A stretch of DNA of 47,849 nucleotides, from assembly GCA_902616675.1 (NCBI GenBank), contig CACMTV010000006.1, positions 1 through 47,849 on the forward strand, read 5' to 3'. The stretch is from an uncultured Pelagibacteraceae bacterium (GTDB lineage: Bacteria > Pseudomonadota > Alphaproteobacteria > Pelagibacterales > Pelagibacteraceae). Position 1 is the stretch's first letter. Every line of letters begins with the position of its first letter. The notes below the pieces were generated by a model. That model ran no database searches. It had not been told where the DNA came from and saw only the letters and a program-made list of their open reading frames with translations. Positions 7,722 through 28,527 of the stretch are shown here, piece by piece. Both the position numbers and the translations under genes were made by a program.

Positions 7722-8741
7722 ATGATAATTAACAAAATGGCTAAATTCTTTATTAAATTAATTTTATTATCTCAGCTCTTGTTATTTGCCAGTCAACTTA
7801 AAGCTTCAGATGAAAGCTTTAATAACTGGTTAGATAATTTTAAAAACCTTGCTCAAAGTGAAGGAGTATCGAAAAATACAATTAATGAGGTACTTACTAA
7901 TGTCAGATTTTTACCTAAGGTAATTGAGTATGATAGATATCAACCTGAGTTTTATGAAGATACCCACACCTATATAAGTAAAAGAACAAGTAATAATAAA
8001 GTCAAAAAAGGTTTAATATTATATTCAAAAGAAAAAAAATTAATTAATAAAATTGAAAACAAATTTTTAGTAGAAAAAGAATTACTTTTAGCTTTAATGG
8101 GAATAGAAACAAATTTTGGAAAATATCTTGGAAAAATGGATATTATTTCTTCATTAGCAACATTAAGCTTTGATAAGAGAAGGAGTGCTTTTTTTACTAA
8201 TGAGTTATTAACTTTATTAAAACTAATAGATAAAAAAGTGATTGATAAAAATATTTTATTTGGTTCTTGGGCTGGAGCTTTTGGTAATTTTCAATTCATG
8301 CCGTCAACTATAAAAAATTATGCCATTGATTATAATAATAATTCAAATATTGAACTAAAAAAAATTGACGACTCGTTTGCCTCTGCAGCTAATTATATTA
8401 ATAAAATCGGCTGGAAAACAAATTCTCCATGTTTTATAAGCATTGAGTTAAATGAGAGTGTTCCAAAAAAATACTTAAATACATCAGCAAGAAAATTAAA
8501 AAACAAAAGAAAAGTTAAACATTTAAAAAAATTTTTAAAAAACTCTGATAATTATACGTCTTATGATGATATGGTAGCAGCAATAATTACTCCTGATAAA
8601 GACATTATACCAGGTTCTAGTACACTTAAACCTGCTTATTTAGTTTTTAATAATTATGAATTAATTTTAAAGTGGAATAGGTCTTTAAGATTTGCTTTAG
8701 CAGTATGTACATTAAAGGACAAAATCAAAAATGAAATATAG
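7722..8741 (+). CDS. mltB: Lytic murein transglycosylase (MltB type)
   Basis: The enzyme cleaves peptidoglycan glycan strands, leaving 1,6-anhydro-muramic ends. An N-terminal signal segment spans about residues 8-28. The catalytic glutamate lies in LLALMGIETNFGKYLG (Glu129), and GSWAGAFGNFQFMPSTI is the second conserved MltB-family block. The 339-residue length fits the MltB/SltB subfamily. An alternative start is the ATG at 7737 (MAKFF), which keeps the signal peptide intact. It begins a chain of overlapping genes for cell-wall remodelling that continues with the SPOR lipoprotein and carboxypeptidase. The overlap with the next gene is 11 bases. Confidence 0.9.
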   Translation: MIINKMAKFFIKLILLSQLLLFASQLKASDESFNNWLDNFKNLAQSEGVSKNTINEVLTNVRFLPKVIEYDRYQPEFYEDTHTYISKRTSNNKVKKGLILYSKEKKLINKIENKFLVEKELLLALMGIETNFGKYLGKMDIISSLATLSFDKRRSAFFTNELLTLLKLIDKKVIDKNILFGSWAGAFGNFQFMPSTIKNYAIDYNNNSNIELKKIDDSFASAANYINKIGWKTNSPCFISIELNESVPKKYLNTSARKLKNKRKVKHLKKFLKNSDNYTSYDDMVAAIITPDKDIIPGSSTLKPAYLVFNNYELILKWNRSLRFALAVCTLKDKIKNEI

Positions 8742-9465
8742 ATTGTTCTTCATACTCATTATATTAGCTTCCTGTTCATCCGTAAGTGTTAACAAATATG
8801 AGAAGCCGGTTTTTAACTCAAAAGGGTTTGCTTATATTTATTCAATAGAAGACTATGAGAAAAAAATAATAAAGAAAAAAATTAATAATTATGAACCTGT
8901 AATAGCGCACAATCAGTTGAATAGAGGTGTTTTATTAAAAATTACAAATCCGAAAAACGGAAAAAATATTATTTTAAAGAATTCATTTAAATTAAATTAT
9001 CCTGATTTTTATAAAATTTTAATTACAAAAACTATTTCTGATCAAATAGGTCTAGATGCTAATTTTCCATTTGTAGAAGTTGAAGAATTAAAAAAAAATA
9101 AGAGTTTTATTGCAAAAAAAGCAGAAACCTATGAAGAAGAAAAACAATTACAAGTTAAAGCACCGATAGAAAAAGTTAAAATTAGCAATATCAGTAAAAC
9201 TATAAAAAAAACATCCAATAAGGAGCATAAATTTGTAATAGTTTTAGGAAATTTTTATTCGTTTGAATCAGCTAATCTTTTAAAAAAAAGGGTTAAAATG
9301 GAGTCACAATCACTAAGAGATAAGAAAATCACTATTTTAAAAAAGAATAAACATAATTTTGAGGTTTTTTTGGGCCCATATAAGACTATAAAAACAATTA
9401 AAAATGATTACATTGCATTAAAACAAATAAATTTTGATGAGGTAGATATAAAAATACATGACTAA
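8731..9465 (+). CDS. RlpA-position lipoprotein with C-terminal SPOR domain
   Basis: Residues 1-15 form a lipoprotein leader (FFILIILASC), so the product is probably anchored in the outer membrane. The C-terminal part, about residues 167-243, has the SPOR pattern (FVIVLGNFYSFESANLLKKRV, then FEVFLGPYKT), which binds denuded glycan at division sites. The middle resembles a worn double-psi beta-barrel (GVLLKITNPKNGKN) but lacks the GxASWYG motif of active RlpA. It lies between a lytic transglycosylase and a D-Ala-D-Ala carboxypeptidase, the usual place of rlpA in alphaproteobacteria. I infer a divergent RlpA; the assignment of the middle region is weak. Confidence 0.7.
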   Translation: MKYRLFFILIILASCSSVSVNKYEKPVFNSKGFAYIYSIEDYEKKIIKKKINNYEPVIAHNQLNRGVLLKITNPKNGKNIILKNSFKLNYPDFYKILITKTISDQIGLDANFPFVEVEELKKNKSFIAKKAETYEEEKQLQVKAPIEKVKISNISKTIKKTSNKEHKFVIVLGNFYSFESANLLKKRVKMESQSLRDKKITILKKNKHNFEVFLGPYKTIKTIKNDYIALKQINFDEVDIKIHD

Positions 9466-10609
9466 AATTATAATAAAATTGATTGCTTTATATTTTATAT
9501 TAATTGCAAATCTTTTTTCTAACCCTAAAGTTGATATTAAGACTGCGATATTAGTAGACTATGACTCCAATAAAATTATTTATGAATTGGAACCAGACAT
9601 GAGCATATATCCAGCATCAATGACAAAAATAATGACCTCAATAATAGTTTTTGATTTATTAAAAGATAACAAACTTTCGCTCGATGATAAATTTATTATT
9701 TCAGAAAAAGCTTGGAGATTATCGCAAAGCGGATATTCATCAATGTTCTTAATGATTAATGATGAAGTTTCAGTTGAAAATTTATTGAAGGGAATAATAA
9801 TTGCGTCTGGTAATGATGCCTGCGTTGCTATTGCCGAAGGTATTGCAGGAACCGAAGAAAATTTTGCTGATATAATGAATGAAAAGGCAAGTGAAATTGG
9901 TATGACTAATACAAATTTTGCAAATTCTTCTGGGATCAATGACCCAGATAATTATTCCACTGTTCGTGATATAGCTATGATGTCACAATATTTAATCAAA
10001 AATCATCCTGATTATTATGAATGGTTTAAAGAAACAGAATTCACTTGGGATAGAACAGGAGGAGATCCTATAACTCAAGGAAATCGTAATCCATTATTAT
10101 ATAAAAGAGTTGGAGTAGACGGAATTAAAACAGGTTATTTGGCTGTAGAAAAATACTCTCTAGCAAGTTCAATGAAAAGAGATCAAAGAAGGTTAATTGC
10201 TGTAGCTAGCGGATTTCAAACTAAAAATGCAAGATCAAGTGGATCGTTAAAGATTCTGAGCTGGGGTTTTAGAAACACAGACACATTTCAAATTTCAAAG
10301 AAAGATGAAACTATATTTCCAATAAAATCTTGGCTAGGAAAAAAAAGCTATATTGATGGAAAAACAAAAGAAGATATCTTTTTAACTTTAAAAAAAAAGC
10401 AAGCTAGAAATCTAAAAGTTTATATAAAATATAACGGTCCAGTCAAAGCTCCAGTAAAAAAAGATCAAAAAATTGGACAAATAGAAGTTTTTGTTAAAGA
10501 TGAACTAGTAAAAAATGTTCCAATATACGCGTCCGAAAATGTTGATAAAGTAAATGTATTCAAAAGTCTATTTATGTCGTTAAATTATTTGATTTGGGGA
10601 GATGTATAA
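9458..10609 (+). CDS. dacC: D-alanyl-D-alanine carboxypeptidase (penicillin-binding protein 5/6 type)
   Basis: This periplasmic serine peptidase removes the terminal D-Ala from peptidoglycan stem peptides. A signal peptide covers residues 1-21. All three catalytic motifs are present: SMTK with Ser54 and Lys57, SGN in IIASGNDACVAIAEG near residue 120, and KTG in GIKTGYL near residue 220. The 383-residue length includes the C-terminal beta domain after the catalytic domain. It overlaps the upstream SPOR lipoprotein by 8 bases and tmk by 8 bases. The gene name follows the usual naming in this neighbourhood; dacA or dacF would be equally defensible. Confidence 0.9.
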   Translation: MTKIIIKLIALYFILIANLFSNPKVDIKTAILVDYDSNKIIYELEPDMSIYPASMTKIMTSIIVFDLLKDNKLSLDDKFIISEKAWRLSQSGYSSMFLMINDEVSVENLLKGIIIASGNDACVAIAEGIAGTEENFADIMNEKASEIGMTNTNFANSSGINDPDNYSTVRDIAMMSQYLIKNHPDYYEWFKETEFTWDRTGGDPITQGNRNPLLYKRVGVDGIKTGYLAVEKYSLASSMKRDQRRLIAVASGFQTKNARSSGSLKILSWGFRNTDTFQISKKDETIFPIKSWLGKKSYIDGKTKEDIFLTLKKKQARNLKVYIKYNGPVKAPVKKDQKIGQIEVFVKDELVKNVPIYASENVDKVNVFKSLFMSLNYLIWGDV

Positions 10610-11246
10610 AAAGAGTTTTTTCATTGTTTTTGAAGGAATAGAGGGGAGTGGCAAATCCTACCAATCAAAAATTTTATACCGTAAATTAAAAAAAATTAAT
10701 AAAAACGTTATTTATACAAGAGAACCGGGTGGCACCAAAAGCGCAGAGATAATTCGTAAAATAATTTTAAAAGATTACTTTGAAAAAAACAAAAAAATAA
10801 AATTTGATAAATATACAGACACTTTATTATATCTAGCAGCTAGAAACGAACATATTAAAAATAAGATAAAACCCGCTATTAAAAATAAAAAAATAATTAT
10901 TTGTGATAGATTTATAGACTCTACTATGGCCTATCAAGTATACGGAAAAAAAGTTTCAATGAATTTTATCAACAATATACACAAACAAGTTCTTGGTAAA
11001 ATAAAACCCGATATAACATTTGTTTTAAAGGTTACGAAACAATCTTTTTTAAAAAGATTAAAAAAAAGAAAATCAAGAAATAGATACGATAATTTCCCAG
11101 TAAAGTTTTATATTAAAGCACAAAATGCATTTTTAAAAATTTCTAAAAAAAAGAAAAACCACATAGTATTAGAGTCATCAGAAAATTCAACGATTCTTCA
11201 AAAAAAAATATTTCAAATTATCAAAAAAAAAATTGGAATTAAATGA
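10602..11246 (+). CDS. tmk: Thymidylate kinase
   Basis: Tmk phosphorylates dTMP to dTDP with ATP in the cytoplasm. The P-loop EGIEGSGKS is at residues 11-19, the DRF motif at residues 102-104, and the TREPGGT substrate loop near residues 39-45. A lysine- and arginine-rich LID region follows. The length of 214 residues is normal. The gene overlaps dacC by 8 bases and holB by 4 bases; tmk-holB-metG-tatD is a standard bacterial order. Confidence 0.95.
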   Translation: MYKKSFFIVFEGIEGSGKSYQSKILYRKLKKINKNVIYTREPGGTKSAEIIRKIILKDYFEKNKKIKFDKYTDTLLYLAARNEHIKNKIKPAIKNKKIIICDRFIDSTMAYQVYGKKVSMNFINNIHKQVLGKIKPDITFVLKVTKQSFLKRLKKRKSRNRYDNFPVKFYIKAQNAFLKISKKKKNHIVLESSENSTILQKKIFQIIKKKIGIK

Positions 11247-24373: not shown

Positions 24374-25150
24374 TTGATTACAGAAATTAAAAAGAAAAAA
24401 ATATTTTCAAATGATGTTGGACATCCTTTTGATAAAAAAAAACCGACTATCATTCTATTACATGGCAGTGGCCAATCTCATGTTGTTTGGTCTTTAACTG
24501 ATCAATTTTTAGCTGATAAAGGTTTTAATGTATTTACCTTAGATCTTCCAGGGCATGGTAATTCCGAAGGACCTTGTTTAAAATCAATAGAAGAAATATC
24601 AAATTGGATAAATGATTTTGTTGATCATGTTGGTATCGAAAAATCTATATTGATTGCTCACTCTCAAGGATGTTTAGAGGCCCTTGAATTTACGAAAAAC
24701 TTTCCAAAAAAAGTTGAAAAAATAGTTTTCATTGCAGGGTCTTATTCTATTCCTGTTAACAAAAGTTTAATTGATCTATCTTTGTCTGGTGATATGGAAG
24801 CCCTAAATTTAATGATGAAATGGGGATATGGATCTTCAAAACAATTTATTGGAGGCAATCCATTACAAAAAATACTTAATTCTTCTAGAGAGGTAAGAGA
24901 GGTTCTGGCTGTAGACTTGATTGCTTGTAATAACTATAAAAATGGTGCTGATGCGGTAAAAAGTATAACGTGCCCAACATTTTTTATTTTTGGTGAAATT
25001 GATAAGATGATTAGATTAGAATCAGGAGAAAAATTTGCAAAAATGATTAACAAATCTAAAGTACATATAATCAAAAATTGTGGTCATATGATAATTTTAG
25101 AAAATGCGTTTGAGATGAGAGAAAAAATTTTAGAATTTTTAAACAAATGA
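24374..25150 (+). CDS. Alpha/beta hydrolase of unknown substrate
   Basis: The protein has the alpha/beta hydrolase pattern: oxyanion-side LLHGSGQ, LDLPGHGNS, the nucleophile elbow IAHSQGCLEA with Ser97, an acidic residue in FFIFGEIDKM, and a final His in NCGHMI. No signal peptide is visible. I favour a TTG start at 24374, preceded by AAAGG with a 7-base gap, which gives 258 residues and an N-terminus right before the first strand. The alternative ATG at 24290 would overlap the upstream crotonase gene by 65 bases. The stop overlaps dmdA by 4 bases, so coupling with dmdA is likely. The substrate is unknown. Confidence 0.82.
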   Translation: MITEIKKKKIFSNDVGHPFDKKKPTIILLHGSGQSHVVWSLTDQFLADKGFNVFTLDLPGHGNSEGPCLKSIEEISNWINDFVDHVGIEKSILIAHSQGCLEALEFTKNFPKKVEKIVFIAGSYSIPVNKSLIDLSLSGDMEALNLMMKWGYGSSKQFIGGNPLQKILNSSREVREVLAVDLIACNNYKNGADAVKSITCPTFFIFGEIDKMIRLESGEKFAKMINKSKVHIIKNCGHMIILENAFEMREKILEFLNK

Positions 25151-26253
25151 AGAATTTTTACATAAGTAAATCACGAAGAGTAAGGTCTACACCTTTTACA
25201 AAAAAAATAGAAGAGCAGGGTGTCAAAAGTTATACAGTTTATAATCATATGTTATTGCCAACTACTTTCTCTAATGTTGATGATGAATATTTGCACTTAA
25301 AAAAAGATGTTCAAATTTGGGATGTTTCGGTTCAAAGAGAAATTGAAATCTCAGGCAGAGATGCAAATCAACTTGTTCAGTTAATGACATGCAGAGATCT
25401 ATCTAGTTCAAAAGTAGGTAGCTGTTATTATGTACCTTTAATTGACTCCAGCGGCGGCATAGTAAATGATCCTCTAATCTATAAACTTGAAGATAACATT
25501 TGGAGAGTATGTATAGCTGACTCAGATGTCTTGTTATATGCAAAAGGGATTGCTGATGGAAAAAAACTTAACGTTAAAATTTTTGAGGCAAATATAGACA
25601 CTATTGCTGTTCAAGGACCTAAGTCTTTTAAGTTAATGGAGGATATTTTTGGTAATGATATTACTAAATTGAAATTTTTCAAATACGATTTCTTTAAATT
25701 CAAAAATAATAAATTTCTTATTTCAAGATCAGGATTTTCAAAACAGGGTGGTTATGAGATACATGTAGATAATGCGAAAGATGGTTTGGAATTATATGAT
25801 CATTTCTTTGATATTGGAAAAAAATACAATGTTAAACCTGGCGCCCCAAATCATGCTGAGAGAATTGAAGGAGGCTTATTGTCGTATGGAAATGATATGC
25901 TTATAAGTGATAATCCATTTGAGTGTGGTTTTGAAAAATTAGTTCATTTAAATTCAGATGTTGAATTTTTAGGTAAAGAGAATTTAAAAAAAATTTGGGA
26001 TAATGGTATTAAAAGAAAATTAATGGGAGTAAAGATTAATTCAAATAATATAAATTTAATGAATGTAGATTTACTCAATAGTAACAAAGAAGTTATTGGT
26101 GATTTAAGATCTGCAGCTTATTCTCCAGGATTTAAAAAGATTGTTGGCATCGCAATGATTAACAATGATTTTTGTAAAAATAATAAGACATTTAGTATAA
26201 ATTTAAATAACAAATTTATAGATGGTGAAATTTGTGTTTTACCAATGACGTAA
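25147..26253 (+). CDS. dmdA: Dimethylsulfoniopropionate demethylase DmdA
   Basis: DmdA, a relative of glycine-cleavage T-protein, moves a methyl group from DMSP to tetrahydrofolate, giving 3-methylthiopropanoate. The N-terminus SRRVRSTPFTKKIEEQGVK, the block YTVYNHMLLPTTF, VQIWDVSVQREIEISG and RIEGGLLSYGNDM match the DmdA branch as I remember it rather than GcvT itself. The length of 368 residues fits. Nearby DmdB-like and DmdC-like genes support the call. It overlaps the hydrolase gene by 4 bases and is followed one base later by the NDUFS4-like gene. A DmdA-like demethylase acting on another methylated osmolyte remains possible. Confidence 0.78.
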   Translation: MKNFYISKSRRVRSTPFTKKIEEQGVKSYTVYNHMLLPTTFSNVDDEYLHLKKDVQIWDVSVQREIEISGRDANQLVQLMTCRDLSSSKVGSCYYVPLIDSSGGIVNDPLIYKLEDNIWRVCIADSDVLLYAKGIADGKKLNVKIFEANIDTIAVQGPKSFKLMEDIFGNDITKLKFFKYDFFKFKNNKFLISRSGFSKQGGYEIHVDNAKDGLELYDHFFDIGKKYNVKPGAPNHAERIEGGLLSYGNDMLISDNPFECGFEKLVHLNSDVEFLGKENLKKIWDNGIKRKLMGVKINSNNINLMNVDLLNSNKEVIGDLRSAAYSPGFKKIVGIAMINNDFCKNNKTFSINLNNKFIDGEICVLPMT

Positions 26254-26254
26254 T

Positions 26255-26539
26255 ATGAAAAAAGCAAAAATTTATATACCATCAAAAACTGCAACACAGT
26301 CAGGCTTAGGTAAAGAAGAAATATGGGTTTTGGAGTTTGAGACTAAAGATACAACTACTAATCCATTGATGGGCTGGGAGTCTTCAAATGACACTCTAGG
26401 GGAAATTAAGATGGAATTTTCTACAAAAGAAAAAGCAATTGAATATGCTAAAAATAACAATATCAGCTTTAAGTTAATAGAGCCTAATAAAAAAAAATTT
26501 GTTATAAAGTCGTATGCTGATAACTTTATAAAAAATTGA
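26255..26539 (+). CDS. NDUFS4-like accessory subunit of NADH dehydrogenase (ETC complex I conserved region)
   Basis: The 94-residue protein shows the family landmarks KIYIPSKTATQSGLG, WVLEFE, NPLMGWESSNDTLGEI and the C-terminal KSYADNFI. In alphaproteobacteria and mitochondria this is a small matrix-side or cytoplasmic complex I subunit. It has no membrane segment. It is placed right after dmdA (one base), away from nuo genes, which is common for this accessory subunit. Co-transcription with dmdA may be coincidental. The length is complete for the family. Confidence 0.9.
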   Translation: MKKAKIYIPSKTATQSGLGKEEIWVLEFETKDTTTNPLMGWESSNDTLGEIKMEFSTKEKAIEYAKNNNISFKLIEPNKKKFVIKSYADNFIKN

Positions 26540-26561
26540 TTTTAAGATTAAATAATTGTTT

Positions 26562-26873
26562 ATGATAAAAAAAAAAATATGTAAAATTGATAAAATAGAA
26601 AAAAATAATTTTTTCAAAATTTGGATTGAAGATTTTAAAGATGAAATAATTGTCTATAAATATAAAAAAAAGATTTATGTAAAGTCTTCAATATGCCCTC
26701 ATTTCGGTGGACCTATTTCTTATAAAAATGACAAATATCTTTTTTGTTATTGGCATGGGCTAAAATTTTCTACTGAAAACGGGCAATGTTTAAACCAAAA
26801 ATCATTTAAAACGTGTTTAATTGATTATTTGTATGAAGTTAAAAAAGATTATATTTATGTATTTAAAAAATGA
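26562..26873 (+). CDS. Small Rieske [2Fe-2S] protein, possible electron-transfer half of a split oxygenase
   Basis: The 103-residue protein has a full Rieske motif: Cys45-Pro-His47 in SICPHFGGP and Cys62-Tyr-Trp-His65 in FCYWHGLKF. This matches Rieske ferredoxins and the N-terminal domain of Rieske non-heme iron oxygenases. I chose the ATG at 26562; a TTG two codons upstream is less likely. Its stop overlaps the start of the next gene (ATGA, 26870-26873), and the next protein carries a mononuclear-iron-like motif. A -1 slip on the A6 run just before the stop would fuse the two frames. See the finding on the split oxygenase. Confidence 0.88.
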   Translation: MIKKKICKIDKIEKNNFFKIWIEDFKDEIIVYKYKKKIYVKSSICPHFGGPISYKNDKYLFCYWHGLKFSTENGQCLNQKSFKTCLIDYLYEVKKDYIYVFKK

Positions 26874-27490
26874 AAATATTAGATTTAACATTTAAAAGAA
26901 AAGTAAATTGTTCAGCGAGTGTATGTTTATGGAACCACTGGGACCACGATCATATCAATTATACTCATGAGGGTATTTACGATAATTCACAAATTTATTA
27001 TGAAGACGATCGTTCTATTTTATTTTTTCATAGTATTAAAGTACCATTTTTACCATTCATAAAGGTAAATACAATCGACCTTACTGTTTTAAAAGATAAG
27101 AATACTGTTTGTACTTATGGTTTTCAATTTGGCATACCATCTTTAACAACTGCCAAATATATTGATATAGGAAAAGATAAGTGTTCCGTTGAAGTAAATT
27201 ATAAGTTTAAATTTAGTGGTATCAAAATTTTGCTATACCCAGTAATTAAATATTTGGTTCCTAAATGGAATAATCAAACTTGGGAGGAGGATTTGCCTTT
27301 AAAAATGAGAAGACAAAAAGTAAAAAGACTAGGTTTTAAAGATTTTAAAGGACTCCCAGAAAAAACTAAAGATAGAAAATTTCAAGGTGATATTGAATTT
27401 AAATTACCAATTACAAGATTAAAAAAAAATGATAACAAGTTAACTAAACATCCTTTTTATAATTTAGGAAAAAAAGGTAATTATATTTAA
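26870..27490 (+). CDS. Putative stand-alone catalytic domain of a Rieske-type non-heme iron oxygenase
   Basis: I do not recognise this 206-residue protein as a named family. Near its N-terminus it has WNHWDHDHINYTHEG, with Asp25-x2-His28-x4-His33. That is the mononuclear iron spacing of Rieske oxygenases (compare D-A-Y-H-V-G-W-T-H in naphthalene dioxygenase). About 108 residues later NQTWEEDLPLKMRRQK (residues 135-150) resembles the helix that supplies the third, acidic ligand (E-D-x2-I/L form), with Asp141 as candidate. Beta-strand-rich sequence lies between. No signal peptide is seen. It is coupled by ATGA to the preceding Rieske protein. Oxygenase function is inference; a START-like protein of other function is the alternative. 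Confidence 0.6.
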   Translation: MKILDLTFKRKVNCSASVCLWNHWDHDHINYTHEGIYDNSQIYYEDDRSILFFHSIKVPFLPFIKVNTIDLTVLKDKNTVCTYGFQFGIPSLTTAKYIDIGKDKCSVEVNYKFKFSGIKILLYPVIKYLVPKWNNQTWEEDLPLKMRRQKVKRLGFKDFKGLPEKTKDRKFQGDIEFKLPITRLKKNDNKLTKHPFYNLGKKGNYI

Positions 27491-27522
27491 GTTTTTTTTA
27501 ATTAAATTGAACTTTCAAAATT

Positions 27523-28527
27523 ATGTGGAGAAGTTTTTTTACAGAGAAAAAATGGTTATTATGGTCTTGGGGTGGATTTGCCTTTATAATCCTTTCTTTG
27601 CTAGCTCAAACCTATATAGATGTTAAAATAAACGAGTGGTATAAGGGATTTTACGACCTTCTACAAAAGGCCCCAGAGCGTGAATTATCGGAATTTTATG
27701 ACGGGATTTACCTATTTATGAAATTGGCTATCCCTTACGTCGTTATTTATACAATCACTAATTATTTTACTAGACTTTGGGCTTTTAGATGGCGAGAGGC
27801 TATGACATTTTCTTATATGCCATATTGGAGAGCAGTAGATGCTAAAGTAGAAGGAGCCTCTCAAAGAATCCAAGAAGATGCCATGAATTTTGCCAAAATA
27901 GTCGAGAGTTTAGGCTTACAAATAGTAAGAGCTATAATGCTTTTGATAGCCTTTATTCCCATTTTATGGGGTTTATCCTCAAATGTAGTAATACCATTTT
28001 TTAAAGATATAACTGGATCTCTAGTTTGGGTTTCTTTAACAGCTAGTTTGGGAGGTTTAGTAATAAGCTGGTTAGTTGGAATTAAACTTCCAGGTTTAGA
28101 ATATAACAATCAAAAAGTTGAAGCAGCCTTTAGAAAAGAACTTGTTTACGGTGAAGATGATAGAAAAAACTACGTTCAAGCACCAACAATTTTTCAATTA
28201 TTTACCGGAATAAAATTTAATTATCACAGATTATTTTTACATTATGGCTATTTCGATCTTTGGATAATTATGTACAACCAAACAATGATAATAGTACCTT
28301 ATCTTTTAATGGGACCTGGATTATTTACTGGTGCAATGACATTAGGTGTTTTAATTCAAACCTCATCAGCTTTCAGAGAGGTTCAAAGTAGTTTTTCTTT
28401 ATTTTTACAAAACTGGACAAGAATAACTGAATTAAGATCTATATATAAACGTCTTAATGAATTCGAGACTGCAATTAATTTTGGAAATAAGTTGAGAAAA
28501 CCTCGAAAATCTGATGTAAGAGCTTAA
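27523..28527 (+). CDS. SbmA/BacA-like peptide uptake transporter
   Basis: The 334-residue inner-membrane protein has SbmA_BacA features: an N-terminal WLLWSWGGFAFIILSLLAQTYIDVKINEWYKGFYDLL region, TRLWAFRWREAMTFSYMPYW, QRIQEDAMNFAKIVESLG, and a GEDD segment before the last helices. About six to seven membrane spans are visible. No ATPase domain is fused, unlike the ABC-D relatives. The family takes up peptide antibiotics and some modified peptides or thiazole compounds using the proton gradient, and in alphaproteobacteria influences very-long-chain lipid A. It shares TAATG with the next gene. Confidence 0.85.
   Translation: MWRSFFTEKKWLLWSWGGFAFIILSLLAQTYIDVKINEWYKGFYDLLQKAPERELSEFYDGIYLFMKLAIPYVVIYTITNYFTRLWAFRWREAMTFSYMPYWRAVDAKVEGASQRIQEDAMNFAKIVESLGLQIVRAIMLLIAFIPILWGLSSNVVIPFFKDITGSLVWVSLTASLGGLVISWLVGIKLPGLEYNNQKVEAAFRKELVYGEDDRKNYVQAPTIFQLFTGIKFNYHRLFLHYGYFDLWIIMYNQTMIIVPYLLMGPGLFTGAMTLGVLIQTSSAFREVQSSFSLFLQNWTRITELRSIYKRLNEFETAINFGNKLRKPRKSDVRA

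Follow-up and report, generated by a model that had tools for sequence, protein, structure and literature searches.

A probable Rieske-type oxygenase divided between two adjacent genes in Pelagibacteraceae, with permuted relatives

Must the two metal centres of a Rieske oxygenase be encoded by one gene? Such enzymes are classed by an N-terminal Rieske motif and a C-terminal iron motif in PMC9615114. The question is raised by two overlapping genes in a 47,849-nucleotide stretch of DNA from an uncultured Pelagibacteraceae bacterium (contig CACMTV010000006.1), referred to here as the window. The first gene (26562..26873, + strand; ATG at 26562, TGA ending at 26873) encodes a 103-residue protein whose sole Pfam domain is a Rieske [2Fe-2S] domain (PF00355, E 1.4e-10; score 41.4 bits, cut-off 20.3), and the cluster ligands Cys45-x-His47-x14-Cys62-x2-His65 are encoded at 26694..26756 (+). 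The second (26870..27490, +; ATG at 26870) encodes a protein of 206 residues, and the two open reading frames share the letters ATGA (26870..26873, +), stop of the one and start of the other. An earlier reading of the same letters, the original prediction, had proposed the pair as a candidate Rieske oxygenase split over two genes, pointing to Cys45, His47, Cys62 and His65, to the ATGA overlap, and to an Asp25-x2-His28-x4-His33 motif with a later segment around Asp141. All of these features are present, and the overlap of a Rieske gene with the gene of the 206-residue protein is confirmed. We find that the pair is probably a heteromeric Rieske-type oxygenase, in which the small protein would be the electron donor and the larger one a catalytic-only subunit. 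The central proposal of a split enzyme is upheld by conserved adjacency, an invariant putative iron site, correlated distances between the two proteins and a fold predicted at low confidence.

Relatives of the 206-residue protein were counted as 14 distinct loci after merging duplicates (L004, L008, L009, L015 and L115-L118). Nine of these are split like the window (the window itself, L002, L003, L005, L006, L007, L010, L011 and L016), and in all nine the catalytic gene is immediately preceded, on the same strand, by a Rieske gene whose product keeps the cluster motif. Partners lying far apart in the genome, which had been named as evidence against a split enzyme, are seen in none. The split pairs sit at different genomic sites. 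Distance matrices of the Rieske and catalytic proteins across the nine loci are strongly correlated (Mantel r 0.89, reached in 0/20000 permutations). The window's own genome (72% complete) has one other Pfam Rieske domain, on another contig.

The case for catalysis rests on the residues of the putative iron site. In the 14-row alignment of catalytic domains, seven columns are invariant: Asn22, Asp25, His28, His33, Asp141, Arg147 and Arg148. The four residues named in advance all fall among them (hypergeometric 4.8e-7, a value that ignores the general tendency of His and Asp to be conserved), and not one of the 14 rows has suffered the loss of His or Asp that would have spoken against the proposal. 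Asn22-x2-Asp25-x2-His28-x4-His33 (26933..26968, +) would provide a bridging Asp and two iron ligands, and Asp141 (27290..27292, +), within TWEEDLPLKMRRQ, would be the third ligand. Judged from the alignment, D-x2-H-x4-H with a later Asp, as in a two-His one-carboxylate site with a bridging Asp, appears to be complete in 14/14 rows. Dicamba monooxygenase has the same pattern and spacing, with N-x2-D-x2-H-x4-H at 154/157/160/165 and Asp at 294; we take 160, 165 and 294 to be its iron ligands and 157 its bridging Asp. Canonical proteins from the same class, chosen for having a Rieske motif and 300-500 residues, carry [DEN]-x2-H-x3/4-H in 50/50 rows, with the Asn as well in 37 (34 of 47 distinct proteins). 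Between the window and L005, the catalytic gene has a nonsynonymous divergence (dN) of 0.20 and a synonymous divergence (dS) of 1.69, the latter saturated. Separate genes, conserved pairing and invariant residues at the putative site are thereby shown at the level of sequence.

Two overlapping genes could also yield one chain. The original prediction had allowed for a programmed -1 frameshift at the junction, or for a canonical gene broken by a sequencing indel, and the window does have six A directly before the TGA of the Rieske gene together with a -1 frame relation; the same AAAAAATGA junction recurs in L005 and L006. However, ATGA junctions are confined to these three loci. The other six split loci have other spacings, and across the nine the genes overlap by up to 14 nt or are separated by up to 16 nt (-14 to +16), with the catalytic gene offset by 2 in six loci and by 1 in three, so that no shared shift would fuse the genes. 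The conserved frame relation and slip site of a programmed frameshift are not found over the nine loci, and this variation argues against frameshift and indel alike. Both genes are open and separate in every split locus, and nine independent errors are unlikely. We consider a single chain made by frameshifting, or a gene broken by error, to be hardly credible.

The remaining five loci (L012, L013, L014, L119 and L120) join the two parts in reverse, with the catalytic domain first and the Rieske motif after it. In four, one open gene (316-332 codons in the alignment) covers both parts. The Rieske motif is present in all five; Pfam's Rieske domain passes the cut-off in L012, narrowly misses it in L014 and is not recognised in L119 and L120, which are assigned on the motif alone. 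Genome G320 holds both forms, a split pair (L009, identical to L005) and a permuted gene (L014). In L013 (1396-2360, genome G483), a run of A is followed by the Rieske motif in a different frame; the gene may be interrupted, the assembly may be wrong, or this may be another way of splitting the enzyme. By contrast with these orders, every one of the 50 canonical rows, which stand for 47 distinct proteins, has the Rieske motif first. In a maximum-likelihood tree built from the 14 catalytic domains, split and permuted forms lie on opposite sides of one branch (100/99), although the program warns of long branches meeting between these two groups. A single chain with an N-terminal Rieske domain and a C-terminal iron domain was looked for and not found, nine loci being split and five reversed; for this reason we do not file the pair as a canonical Rieske oxygenase. 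The proposed check among relatives, two genes with the same overlap or a fused gene, came out in part: adjacent genes are kept in nine loci, but the overlap varies and the fused forms, in five, run in the opposite order. The occurrence of catalytic domain and Rieske motif together in five loci, as one gene in four, ties the two functions together.

The structural evidence is more equivocal. Two AlphaFold2 models were made from four sequences (window, L005, L006 and L007), with either the window or L007 first. Both show the same order of elements, a strand, two helices, six strands and a long helix, and both are consistent with a helix-grip catalytic fold, which the original prediction had expected of the 206-residue protein modelled alone. 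The first model gives helix-grip matches up to Z 15.0 over 145 residues (3tvq, root-mean-square deviation (rmsd) 2.9), and its Foldseek list has SxtT in 17th place (E 8.6e-6) and GxtA in 42nd. For the second model, dicamba monooxygenase (3gke) scores Z 11.2 with rmsd 2.5 over 133 residues, at rank 5 with the first rows tied, and model residues 2-141 align with chain residues 134-297. The offset at the start of this alignment would put Asp25, His28 and His33 on 157, 160 and 165. No Rieske oxygenase is among the best 50 of the first model's VIA list or the best 50 of the second model's Foldseek list. Enzymes of the DdmC (dicamba monooxygenase)/VanA type, which share the motif and the late Asp, are single chains of about 340 residues that begin with the Rieske domain, and show no clear profile similarity to the 206-residue protein.

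Several results weigh against an oxygenase. Both models are of low confidence (predicted local distance difference test (pLDDT) 51.4 and 55.8; predicted template modelling score (pTM) 0.52 and 0.53), and their top matches are mostly iron-free Bet v 1/START-type proteins and not Rieske oxygenases, so the fold alone is no proof. The 206-residue protein has zero Pfam matches at E up to 10 and likewise none in NCBIfam, even at E 10, and the catalytic proteins of L003, L007 and L010 have no relevant Pfam match. Profile comparison by hhalign with a VanA set (13 of 24 extracted proteins) gave 23.7, which 0/60 shuffles reach, with a reversed control at 22.2; a ring-hydroxylase set gave 20.3, reached by 1/60 shuffles. 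Because the first score is barely above that of the reversed profile and the second was beaten by a shuffle, we claim no sequence homology. Along its whole length the Rieske partner is similar to soluble Rieske ferredoxins, and no reductase is seen beside the pair. Searching the Protein Data Bank (PDB) with the catalytic profile returned a single match, a ribosomal protein at E 0.23, and PF00848 and PF19112 have zero matches in the window's own genome.

These points would suit a Rieske ferredoxin that merely shares an operon with an iron-free helix-grip protein, ligand-binding or cyclase-like, with a separate active site. The Rieske partner is of the size of T4moC-type soluble ferredoxins and matches their profile from end to end, and the catalytic protein finds its best fold matches in aromatase/cyclases and Bet v 1 proteins. 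Around the cluster, the partner resembles oxygenase Rieske domains. Unlike T4moC, which presumably serves a monooxygenase of another type, the window's Rieske protein is paired with a predicted catalytic subunit lacking a Rieske domain. An iron-free partner sits poorly with a complete Rieske-oxygenase iron-site pattern, bridging Asp included, that is invariant in 14/14 rows, and with five loci in which both parts occur in one gene or a broken form of it. We regard such a ferredoxin and binding protein as unlikely.

If the pair is instead a heteromeric Rieske-type oxygenase, its working can be sketched from known enzymes. The 103-residue protein would carry the Rieske cluster and the 206-residue helix-grip protein the mononuclear iron, held by His28, His33 and Asp141. 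The two would assemble, perhaps as a trimer of heterodimers, with each Rieske cluster beside a catalytic subunit's iron. The Rieske protein would be reduced by an unlinked reductase of the cell, and electrons would pass from a Rieske histidine through Asp25 and His28 to the iron, where O2 would be activated for hydroxylation or dealkylation of the substrate. In CntA, as PMC7948474 and PMC12445004 describe it, electrons travel between subunits by way of a bridging acid, and mutants of that acid have no activity; the centres lie about 12 A apart between subunits as against >40 A within one chain. Because canonical Rieske oxygenases already pass electrons between subunits, the link within a chain would be dispensable, and both a split form and a permuted fusion could work. 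The split and reversed forms among relatives suggest that a link between the halves is unneeded for the chemistry.

The catalytic family is rare in the sampled genomes. The 206-residue protein or its profiles matched 4/297 genomes of the order, 7/397 of the family, 2/385 of the class, and 1/299 of the phylum, the last being the window's own genome; a draw from the order with a wider profile gave 7/397. These draws overlap, and all include the window's own genome except one from the family of G552, where 1/7 genomes matched. The one match in G552, a genome that is 95% complete, comes from a different alphaproteobacterial family. Among order and family draws of genomes at least 90% complete, none matched (0/150, 0/140 and 0/151). 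A scan of genome contigs gave matches in three records: two belong to uncultured Pelagibacteraceae (74 and 72% identity), and the third, at 34%, to a Beijerinckiaceae metagenome-assembled genome. A viral or plasmid home was considered and set aside after null searches: no relatives were found in IMG/VR with five queries, by scans that seed on short peptide patterns and may miss distant relatives, nor in phages or plasmids with two queries each.

What the enzyme acts on may be asked of its neighbourhood. In the window, dmdA (25147-26253; dimethylsulfoniopropionate (DMSP) demethylase model, 486 bits against a cut-off of 410) is followed by an NDUFS4-like gene (26255-26539; PF04800, E 1.4e-31), which the original prediction had left out of its account, then by the pair, and then by an sbmA/bacA-like gene (27523-28527). 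Comparison with congeners defines an insert of about 980 bp between NDUFS4 and sbmA (26540..27522, no strand assigned) that holds exactly the Rieske and catalytic genes. Forty other genomes of the genus have an sbmA match; of these, 29 loci were read, and in all 29 NDUFS4 and sbmA lie within about 15 nt of each other, so that the insert occurs in the window only. One congener, G398, has the site empty (L028) and the pair elsewhere in its genome. With an insert in the window only and the G398 pair elsewhere, the pair behaves like a two-gene cassette.

Its closeness to dmdA, 308 nt upstream, had suggested a methylated osmolyte or other small substrate, and a split Rieske oxygenase whose substrate is a small methylated compound tied to DmdA or to C1 metabolism would find a parallel in L123, where a canonical Rieske oxygenase and a DmdA/GcvT-like paralogue of 29% identity lie within about 3.5 kb of a permuted gene. 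That oxygenase (7781-9013, -; PF00848 and Rieske) adjoins the permuted gene of L119, and the paralogue (9919-11013) is on the opposite, + strand. The paralogue is, however, the one match of DmdA by tblastn in the flanks of 13 relatives' loci; the other 12 have none, and neighbours there are mostly glycan genes. In the window NDUFS4 separates dmdA from the pair, and the congener loci read all lack the pair at this site, where several of them do have dmdA. Because the pair is an insert those loci lack, dmdA looks incidental. We did not retain the suggested substrate, and judge a link to DmdA or C1 metabolism very unlikely.

A different association recurs among relatives. A GT2 glycosyltransferase gene lies within 4 kb of 9/13 loci (12 genomes), against 0.9 expected from density (P 1.4e-8), and of 7/11 after dropping two loci (P 1.2e-6), with genome sizes rounded, loci partly non-independent and the 4-kb limit picked after seeing the positions. 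The four loci with none within that distance are the window and those of G483, G254 and G200; the contig of the window copy has no GT2 gene at all, a further point to be set against our interpretation. Genes of other kinds nearby include, in L050, a cytidylyltransferase and two NeuB synthases; in L048 and L054, nucleotidyltransferase and epimerase genes; in L007 and L052, DegT aminotransferases; and in L005, a sugar C-methyltransferase. A GT2 gene is found close to both permuted genes L119 and L120, and an LPG-synthase-like membrane protein at L119. In four loci (L050, L051, L053 and L054) an S-adenosylmethionine (SAM) methyltransferase gene lies directly downstream. In two of these, genes for the same type of 299-residue methyltransferase overlap the end of the permuted oxygenase gene (L051 10683-11582 and L053 10687-11586), which hints at a conserved two-step modification. 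Seven of 40 scanned neighbours have no Pfam match at E 1e-6 or no clear function, and a few, such as a MazG-like protein and a DUF2784 protein in L049, have no evident glycan role. Near oxygenase genes are proteins of 526-554 residues with no Pfam match at E 1e-6 (L005 6715-8334, L047 11021-12685 and L051 6996-8576), by eye like membrane proteins of glycan islands. Near L119/L120-type permuted genes are proteins of 311-312 residues with similar starts and no Pfam match at E 0.001 (L124 10863-11801 and L123 1001-1936). With 9/13 loci near a GT2 gene, glycan tailoring would be the likeliest role, and we infer from the neighbours, at about even odds, that the enzyme acts on a sugar, or a lipid-linked sugar, belonging to cell-surface glycans.

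Division of a Rieske oxygenase has precedents. The 7-methylxanthine N7-demethylase of Pseudomonas putida CBB5, NdmC with NdmD and NdmE, likewise has a catalytic subunit without a Rieske domain and a cluster on another protein, as PMC4408171 describes. There the Rieske domain is fused to a reductase and a glutathione S-transferase (GST)-like gene is present, whereas the window's Rieske protein is a stand-alone chain of 103 residues and only two genes travel together; neither NdmCDE trait is found in the window's insert, and GST genes were not searched in the flanks of relatives. Chlorophyllide a oxygenase of Micromonas pusilla is also made of two polypeptide chains, for which a trimer of dimers is suggested (PMC9615114). 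Compared by description, that is a eukaryotic chlorophyll enzyme, whereas we have a bacterial two-gene cassette with a permuted sister group. In the accessible portions of the open-licence literature on split, permuted, fused and NdmC-type Rieske oxygenases, a stand-alone Rieske gene with a catalytic-only gene, or a permuted sister group, did not turn up. Nor do the accessible portions of that on SAR11 and on glycan links of Rieske oxygenases describe a split or permuted catalytic family. Within those bounds, both the pair of stand-alone genes and the permuted sister group appear new. As neither Pfam nor NCBIfam gives the catalytic protein a name, annotation by them would miss it.

Taken together, our results leave open, at a little less than an even chance, a broader reading: a distinct branch of the Rieske-type oxygenases, found rarely among marine and other alphaproteobacteria, that tailors surface or lipid-linked sugars and uses its domains as free modules, in one group as a two-gene enzyme of about 309 residues and in a sister group as a permuted fusion. 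If true, it would be natural proof that covalent link and domain order are immaterial while the Rieske cluster docks beside the iron. The principle of transfer between subunits would become directly testable, since donor and catalytic domain could be purified, titrated and exchanged separately. It would also be a very small oxygenase, and would point Rieske chemistry towards the glycans of bacterial surfaces.
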